From positions 1 to 53,235 of the forward strand of contig VGBW01000008.1 in the NCBI GenBank assembly GCA_016870365.1: DNA of 53,235 nucleotides. Direction: 5' to 3'. The stretch is from Actinomycetota bacterium (lineage in GTDB: Bacteria; Actinomycetota; Actinomycetes; Nanopelagicales; Nanopelagicaceae). Positions 29,315 through 34,445 of the stretch are shown here, one piece after another. The notes beneath the pieces are model-generated. The model was not told where the DNA came from. It ran no database searches and was given only the letters and a program-made list of their open reading frames with translations. Made by a program: the position numbers and the translations under genes. Numbering within the stretch: position 1 is the first letter of the stretch; each line of letters starts with the position of its first letter.

Positions 29315-29315
<1 letters not shown>
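28203..29315 (-). CDS. guaB3: GuaB3-family IMP dehydrogenase-related protein
   Basis: 370 residues, TIM barrel of the IMPDH/GMPR superfamily in the GuaB3 branch (YSFDDISIAPSRRTR start; [43 protein letters not shown]). Recent work assigns GMP reductase activity to some GuaB3 proteins (recalled, not checked). The loop that normally carries the catalytic Cys reads GGGAAHTTR, with His at 222. The stop of guaB overlaps its ATG by one base. There is no CBS module, as expected for GuaB3. Confidence 0.9.
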
Positions 29316-30445
<1,130 letters not shown>

Positions 30446-30461
30446 TTAATGGAATGGGTAT

Positions 30462-31391
30462 TTAAGCTCCAACTGCCCGCGTAATTTCAGTAATTGCGCC
30501 ATCTAAGCAATCAACCTTGACCACAGGTTGCCTTGAAGACTTGCGCCATCCTGGCCCACCAAGAATTATTCGTGGGGACGGTCTGATCTTTGGAATATCT
30601 CCAACAAGTTCGCACTTTCCATTCTTAACTAACTGCGCCCAGAGAAAGACTGCGGGAGGAGATGATTTCTTCACCATCGCCCCAACTGCGGCTATCGGAG
30701 TTCTGGCACCTAGAAATTGCGATTGAATATTTCTCTCAGATAAAGCTGCTCCCAAGGTATGGAGGGCTAGGGTATGCATCTCCTCGCCAATGCAGGCTAA
30801 TAGCACTGGCCGGGGATTAATTGGGTTATCTGGGGTTTGATTTGAGCTCTGCATCAGGCGAATAATGATCTCTGTTAGTAAGTGCTCTATTTCTATGCCA
30901 GTACCAAGCTCCTCCCATTCATCTCCTACCGCAATTAGAACCGGCGCAATCAACCCATTCCAGGCGTTGACAATCCCGCGCTCACTTATCTGGCGCTTTA
31001 GGGTATTTTCAATAAAGGCCCGGTCATAAACTCTGGCAGCCCTAAGAAGTGATTCGATCAAATCAGCGCAATCTGCTATCTCAATTGCCGGACTTTGATT
31101 GCGTGAGGATTCGACACTTCTTATCTTGCTCTTTAGCGCCGTTTCAGCCGCATCACAGGGTGCGTGCCCCTGGATAATCAGCCTTCGCATCAAGTTAAGC
31201 CTGGCTAGATCCCTCGAGTTATATCTGCGGTGCTCACCTGGGGCATGACTTGAAGGACCTAGGCCATATCGCCTATCCCAAGTTCTAAGGGTCGCTGGAG
31301 CCACTCCGAGTCTTCGGGCCACAGAGGCGACGGTGAGACGCTCATCTTCTAAGCCGGCTTTGCGGTCGGCACTTTTGGGGCGCTGAGCCAT
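30462..31391 (-). CDS. MerR-family regulator with cobalamin-binding-like domain (CarH/LitR type)
   Basis: 309 residues: MerR winged helix (about 18-75, TVASVARRLGVAPATLRTWDRRYGL and HRRYNSRDLARL), a linker, a four-helix-like segment (about 105-185) and a Rossmann-like B12-binding fold (about 195-305). W159, E169 and H170 reproduce the W-x9-EH motif of CarH, and E204-x-H206 matches the lower-ligand His motif, 36 residues after H170. FLGARTP and IILGGPG are also in the expected places. CarH proteins are adenosylcobalamin light sensors that repress carotenoid or photoprotection genes until lit. It faces whiB3 and precedes guaB by 25 nt. Loss of B12 binding in a related non-photosensory protein is the main alternative. 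Confidence 0.8.
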   Translation of the reverse strand: MAQRPKSADRKAGLEDERLTVASVARRLGVAPATLRTWDRRYGLGPSSHAPGEHRRYNSRDLARLNLMRRLIIQGHAPCDAAETALKSKIRSVESSRNQSPAIEIADCADLIESLLRAARVYDRAFIENTLKRQISERGIVNAWNGLIAPVLIAVGDEWEELGTGIEIEHLLTEIIIRLMQSSNQTPDNPINPRPVLLACIGEEMHTLALHTLGAALSERNIQSQFLGARTPIAAVGAMVKKSSPPAVFLWAQLVKNGKCELVGDIPKIRPSPRIILGGPGWRKSSRQPVVKVDCLDGAITEITRAVGA

Positions 31392-31456
31392 GGGCTAATA
31401 GTGGCGCTAATCACCTAAATCGGCGAACTGAAATCCAGGAATTTACCCCAAAGTAC

Positions 31457-31485
31457 TTGAACAATCTATGGCGCGATTGTATATT
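31457..31485 (+). promoter_or_regulatory. Leaderless promoter of whiB3
   Basis: TTGAAC (31457-31462), a 17-nt spacer, TATATT (31480-31485), then 6 nt to ATG 31492. This is the best-matching sigma-70-type promoter in the window and sets the start codon of the whiB gene. An in-frame ATG at 31468 lies within the spacer and is therefore not the start. Confidence 0.8.
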
Positions 31486-31491
31486 GCGGCC

Positions 31492-31794
31492 ATGCCAGAG
31501 ATCTCACGCCTACCAAAGCCAGTTATCGATAACTGGCAATGGCAATTTGAAGGGGCCTGCCGCTCACTTCCCACCGAGATGTTCTTTCATCCAGATGGAG
31601 AGCGAGGACCTAGAAGGCGCGCCAGAGAAAATGCTGCAAAGGCTGTCTGCGCAACTTGCCCAGTAATCGCAGCTTGCAGAGCGCACGCCCTTGCCTCACA
31701 GGAGCCTTATGGAATCTGGGGCGGTTTAACAGAGGATGAGCGCCTTGAAATCATCTCTCGGGCTTCTCGCCAGAGCAGCCCACATAGCGCTTAG
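31492..31794 (+). CDS. whiB3: WhiB3/WhiD-type Wbl iron-sulfur regulator
   Basis: A 100-residue Wbl protein. Four Cys ligands are present (GACR, CATC, AACR) in C-xn-C-x2-C-x5-C order, followed by PYGIWGGLTEDER, the G(V/I)WGG turn that contacts the principal sigma factor. FFHPDGERG and WQWQFEGACR resemble mycobacterial WhiB3 and Streptomyces WhiD more than WhiB1, 2 or 4. Wbl proteins bind a 4Fe-4S cluster sensitive to oxygen and NO and regulate redox and developmental genes with sigma-A. Neighbours groEL1 and guaB2/guaB3 match the mycobacterial neighbourhood. Start 31492 follows from the leaderless promoter; no Shine-Dalgarno exists. Confidence 0.9.
   Translation: MPEISRLPKPVIDNWQWQFEGACRSLPTEMFFHPDGERGPRRRARENAAKAVCATCPVIAACRAHALASQEPYGIWGGLTEDERLEIISRASRQSSPHSA
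31518..31537. promoter_or_regulatory. 20-bp perfect palindrome inside the whiB3 5' coding region
   Basis: GCCAGTTATCGATAACTGGC is fully self-complementary and begins 27 nt after the predicted transcription start. It encodes residues about 9-15 of the Wbl protein. It could be an operator for a dimeric repressor or an mRNA hairpin (8-bp stem, TCGA loop) near the leaderless start. Confidence 0.5.

Positions 31795-32804: not shown

Positions 32805-34445
<1,641 letters not shown>

Follow-up and report, generated by a model that had tools for sequence, protein, structure and literature searches.

A MerR-family regulator with a cobalamin-type C-terminal domain is encoded in the window, the whole 53,235-nt stretch of Nanopelagicaceae DNA that was analysed, and the divergent whiB gene, not guaB, is almost certainly its target. 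From conserved DNA sites and matching gene losses we consider control of whiB by this regulator very probable. The regulator most likely reads an operator within the spacer of the whiB promoter, with whiB as its one conserved target. Sequence comparison also places the protein in a whiB-linked, CarH-like actinobacterial subfamily, separate from strict CarH/class I LitR. Positions of the features are given in Table 1.

Table 1. Features of the regulator–whiB region (positions in the window)
Feature	Position	Strand	Basis
guaB, 373 aa, 25 nt downstream of regulator	29315-30436	-	ORF, Pfam
MerR-family regulator with cobalamin-type C-terminal domain	30462-31391	-	ORF, Pfam, TtCarH match
MerR helix-turn-helix DNA-binding domain, residues 20-82	31146-31334	-	Pfam MerR_1, 47 bits
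Four-helix cobalamin-cap domain B12-binding_2, residues 111-180	30852-31061	-	Pfam, 25.9 bits, above cut-off
Rossmann-type B12-binding domain, residues 196-286	30534-30806	-	Pfam below cut-off; TtCarH alignment
W159, adenosyl-capping Trp (TtCarH W131)	30915-30917	-	alignment; 74/74 in family
E169-H170 (TtCarH E141-H142)	30882-30887	-	alignment; 74/74 and 73/74
H206, predicted lower axial ligand (TtCarH H177)	30774-30776	-	alignment; 74/74
W251, at position of tail-contacting Ser of SxT/V (TtCarH S222)	30639-30641	-	74/74 Trp in family
W282 of GGPGW, where CarH has GGQGA	30546-30548	-	72/74 Trp, 2/74 Phe
TACTTGAACAA, exact match to CarH half-site consensus nAnnTnnACAn	31454-31464	+	consensus from PMC8156234
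Candidate operator TTGAACAATCTATGGCGCGATTGTA, dyad ACAAY-N10-RTTGT	31457-31481	+	conserved in 74 loci; about once per genome; lost with regulator
whiB promoter: -35 TTGAAC, 17-bp spacer, -10 TATATT	31457-31485	+	sequence, conservation
whiB-family Fe-S regulator, 100 aa, presumed target	31492-31794	+	Pfam Whib, 87 bits

A candidate operator within the whiB promoter

Between the regulator and whiB lie 100 bp, which contain TTGAACAAYYTATGRMRCGRTTGTA (31457-31481); this sequence overlaps a near-consensus promoter. Its dyad is centred within the spacer between the −35 and −10 hexamers, and the −10 hexamer ends 6 nt ahead of the whiB ATG, a position from which the whiB mRNA is probably leaderless. 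Promoter spacers normally drift freely; conservation of this spacer across the 74 loci almost equals that of the hexamers.

With up to three mismatches allowed, the operator was found in 52 of 61 genomes at one site each, except that G059 carries an extra three-mismatch site on another contig. A reversed-pattern control gave 0 sites. Occurrence of the operator followed that of the regulator, in 52 of the 53 regulator-bearing genomes and none of the 8 regulator-less ones; the relatedness of these genomes makes a formal P-value for the match optimistic, although the losses are spread over several genera. The sole exception, G012, has a four-mismatch form of the site. Most of the regulator-less genomes examined are also without this whiB. 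Where it is retained at 62-72% identity (G039, G066, G076, G084, and G078), the operator is absent from its promoter, the readable upstream stretch being short in G078. A site used by WhiB itself or by RNA polymerase alone would be expected to stay in such genomes, which speaks against a site of either kind.

In other actinobacterial families, a variant site is present in 20 of 26 whiB-linked loci and rare in shuffled sequences (p 0.004 or less), whereas in some f22 and f28-type loci the same shuffle comparison placed it no better than background. No operator-like sites were found upstream of subfamily members located away from whiB. In genus g17 alone, a further, degenerate copy is located 26-27 bp upstream of the main operator (16 locus entries from 13 genomes, e.g. 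L026, L030, L050, and L072); the two sites together would make an operator similar in size to that of CarA/CarH (~55 bp). No 11-bp tandem of the kind proven for CarH was seen here; a dyad lies in the 17-bp spacer. There is one exact half-site, the left one, with its fixed bases conserved; its fit to the CarH consensus is a weak point of the comparison, because just five bases of that consensus are fixed.

Upstream of the operator, the regulator–whiB intergenic regions also share a conserved element close to CCACYTGAAAC (31424-31434 in the window). It scores at least 9/11 in 47 of 75 family loci, compared with 2% of shuffles, and 8/11 in the window. Its distances to the operator cluster near 33, 43-45, and 54-57 bp, which correspond to helical steps. 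This element may serve as promoter of the regulator gene or as another protein-binding site.

Neighbouring genes and corrinoid supply

The gene layout given in the preliminary description, with guaB 25 nt from the regulator and whiB divergent, was confirmed. The short gap and the same-strand order would suit a regulator that mainly controls guaB and hence guanine nucleotide synthesis, and transcripts from an autoregulated promoter might continue into guaB. We judge such control of guaB very improbable, because the conserved operator lies solely on the whiB promoter, guaB persists where the regulator is lost (at 80-84% identity in G039, G055, and G070), and the regulator of other actinobacteria is often separated from guaB by kilobases with whiB still adjacent. 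For these reasons guaB was rejected as target, and an effect on this gene is unsupported.

The guaB product of the window is 373 aa long. Matches of the gene outside the family, and also those in genera g6 and g15, are interrupted by ~390 bp, a pattern suggesting that the family gene has lost a domain from its interior, probably the CBS pair. In genomes of genus g2 (G001, G018, G030, G042, and G053), from which the regulator and its whiB are also lost, no close guaB copy was found; they have relatives of ~41-42% identity in 481-aa frames and a guaB3-like gene.

As had been stated before, the neighbours of the regulator are not carotenoid genes. Phytoene synthase is located on another contig and is found in 59 of 61 genomes, and rhodopsin, likewise on a contig other than that of the regulator, in 54 of 61. 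Phytoene synthase is present also in regulator-less genomes; the occurrence of these genes fails to track the regulator, and the carotenoid link was rejected.

CbiC is absent from the window genome, so imported B12 is the likely source, in line with the earlier view that this bacterium probably does not make its own. A PduO-type cobalamin adenosyltransferase is encoded in this genome and in 55 of 61 relatives, which makes the use of imported B12 as AdoCbl feasible. The adenosyltransferase was found both with and without the regulator and was rejected as a discriminator.

Predicted cofactor-binding residues of the regulator

The 309-aa regulator, whose frame starts with ATG, has the architecture of CarH/class I LitR (Thermus CarH, PDB 5C8D): first a MerR DNA-binding domain, then a four-helix and a Rossmann cobalamin domain. 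The Rossmann domain scored 24.5 bits in Pfam against a cut-off of 32.1. TtCarH and CtMerR (PDB 8JBS) are the nearest solved proteins; the single sequence matched TtCarH with an E value of 8e-17, and a 26-member profile covered nearly the whole TtCarH length with an E value of 1.7e-35. CarH is the best named family, with a score of 86 bits, far under the NCBIfam equivalog cut-off of 400 bits, and the same model matched all 26 sampled subfamily members weakly. AlphaFold predictions of the full protein and of the cobalamin domain alone (7-close-sequence alignment) were uninformative, with pLDDT of 52 and 48, and viral contigs scanned for a deeper alignment returned helix-turn-helix matches only.

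The preliminary description had pointed to a W-x9-EH motif and an E-x-H axial-ligand motif at CarH spacing. In our alignment W159, E169, H170, and H206 are collinear, one to one, with their TtCarH counterparts, with no gap between the Trp and the EH, and W159-x9-E169-H170 is thus intact. Among 74 distinct proteins from the same freshwater family (Nanopelagicales/acI), G156, W159, E169, H206, G228, and P232 are invariant and H170 occurs in 73, with neighbouring positions varying. The concern that such residues might be common to non-B12 MerR proteins finds no support in the control, the MerR protein MlrA of E. coli, which has a related C-terminal domain but none of the ligand residues. B12-independent CarA retains EH and the classic B12 motif, and is without the W of Wx9EH (PMC9304148).

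The B12 motif deviates in the part that concerns the nucleotide tail. The published motif, D/ExHx2G/P-x41-SxT/V-x22-27-GG, requires G or P after the His, and SxT/V (PMC9304148). E204-x-H206 and GG278-279 are correctly spaced in the regulator, which has A209 in place of the Gly/Pro and W251-x-Q253 in place of SxT/V, and so departs from the motif. Of the light signature GxxW, EH, GxxH, and GxxxP, in which GxxH is required (PMC11796333), three of four elements are found; GxxH fails, as the regulator reads E203-E-M-H206 with Glu at the Gly site. The AerR residue that corresponds to the Ser of SxT/V forms a hydrogen bond with the dimethylbenzimidazole tail, and known binders have Thr, Ser, or Ala there (PMC9144470). 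Trp251 should alter or close the nucleotide-tail pocket, and with this Trp at the position where CarH has a Ser touching the tail, the tail of a bound corrinoid would have to sit differently. MetH of the same genome retains the standard SGL, so the change is confined to the regulator. Trp/Tyr for the Ser, and GG followed by PGW, explain why the protein falls short of the published CarH motif and of the CarH model cut-off. The CarH-type reading in the preliminary description hence holds for the architecture and the adenosyl-capping residues, but not for the nucleotide-tail part of the motif.

Outside the family, W159 is missing in several relatives, soil relatives among them, though H206 and the whiB operator persist; one relative (L139) has lost both the axial His and EH. 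With its conserved ligand residues, the regulator of the window probably binds a corrinoid through H206. Control of whiB without a corrinoid, as in Myxococcus CarA, or with another ligand such as heme, as in SCHIC domains, with Trp251 and Trp282 filling the old tail pocket, would fit the Trp at the tail-contact site and the GGPGW throughout the subfamily as well as the state of L139, and SCHIC domains show that the fold can switch to heme. We regard this possibility as unlikely, as H206, E169, and H170 are retained almost everywhere. CarA resembles the regulator as a CarH-like MerR protein whose operator overlaps the promoter that it represses, but CarA has lost the W kept here and keeps the classic motif altered here, so the regulator falls outside the CarA type. 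SCHIC domains have the axial His shifted by two residues and the W cap lost (PMC9144470); H206 and W159 are in CarH register, which sets the regulator apart from SCHIC as well.

A whiB-linked subfamily across the Actinomycetes

Orthologues were found across the class Actinomycetes. The regulator gene and whiB are divergently oriented in many families; groEL-groES lies past whiB, and guaB is found on the opposite flank, as much as several kb away. Adjacency to whiB is retained across the class. The translated GroEL of the window (32805-34439) has a His-rich C-terminal tail. The window genome is 1.29 Mb, and a search for the gene in its family matched 140 of 151 genomes, part of these being only short matches to another, HspR-like gene. 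The regulator gene is absent from the whole of genus g2 and from parts of g4, g5, g8, and g16.

In a maximum-likelihood tree, whose long branches leave the deep order unsure, 55 proteins of the whiB-linked type form one starred clade (98/98), to which TtCarH, CtMerR, and the canonical CarH-like proteins L097 and L098 do not belong. The hallmarks of the subfamily are W144, E/D-x-H-x2-P/A, W/Y251 at the Ser site of the CarH SxT/V, and GGPGW. L097 and L098 are second copies from the same bacterial family, and share with the regulator the MerR and cobalamin domains and the W, EH, and H residues, but differ from it in retaining the CarH-type Gly (GxxH) and Ser (SxT/V). They adjoin fasciclin-domain genes, from which they are divergent (L097 4753-7037, L098 5733-7947), and the fasciclin-domain gene is a possible target of these copies. 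Since the regulator lacks motif elements that define strict CarH/class I LitR, we place it in a whiB-linked CarH-like subfamily, of which no description was found in the open papers searched (subscription papers lay outside the search). This subfamily could overlap with class V LitR of Micrococcales, which is said to be without a B12 domain.

Proposed regulation of whiB

In classical activating MerR systems, the dyad lies inside an over-long promoter spacer of 19-20 bp. Here the dyad is centred in the spacer, but the spacer is 17 bp, which favours repression. The sign of regulation, the binding of a corrinoid, the exact form of that corrinoid, and the light response are inferences. We give roughly even chances to the proposal that the regulator is a CarH-like, corrinoid-dependent MerR repressor dedicated to the divergent whiB. 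In the dark, the protein carrying an adenosylated corrinoid would oligomerise on the operator and block RNA polymerase. When light breaks the Co-C bond, or the corrinoid runs out, the protein would leave the operator, and the Fe-S redox regulator WhiB would be made. The anatomy of operator and promoter fits the precedent of CarH, whose AdoCbl-bound oligomer sits in the dark on a promoter-overlapping operator and is freed by light (PMC8156234). The target differs, being whiB here and carotenoid genes in Thermus CarH.

The light-state ligand would have to differ from that of TtCarH. At the site of His132, which serves the bis-His light state, the regulator has E160 and other members have A/Q/V/K/S, so that this state is impossible here. 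That E160 or Ala precludes it would suit a regulator answering to corrinoid supply (or the redox state of cobalt) and not to light, in which whiB would be repressed by the corrinoid-bound form and derepressed once the corrinoid is lost, photolysis being a side effect; B12 that is probably imported and variable, given the lack of CbiC, and the loss of W159 in soil relatives point the same way. We hold this to be improbable. W159 and EH, which CarH needs to hold the adenosyl group, do not vary within the sunlit-water family, and CtMerR, which shares the W, EH, and axial His and has Arg at the bis-His position, nevertheless falls apart in light, although it retains the GxxH and the Ser of SxT/V that the regulator does not. 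With an adenosyltransferase present and CbiC absent, light sensing by the regulator is plausible, and light-switched regulation may be present or absent in this family with about equal probability.

A broader reading, which we offer tentatively as possible but below even odds, is a class-wide actinobacterial branch of CarH-like photoreceptors with a Trp-closed tail pocket and probably non-standard corrinoid binding, in which light would switch a WhiB3/WhiD-type Fe-S redox regulator of abundant freshwater bacteria, with whiB as the single conserved target. WhiB-family Fe-S regulators mediate redox responses, and act in virulence and sporulation in Mycobacterium and Streptomyces (PMC4255298). 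The subfamily would provide a clean test of whether the tail-pocket change is tolerated with the adenosyl cap and axial His intact. If our reading is correct, a conserved regulator with CarH-type cofactor residues and its operator on whiB would link redox control to B12, and perhaps to light, in bacteria of sunlit freshwater as well as in many further actinobacteria.
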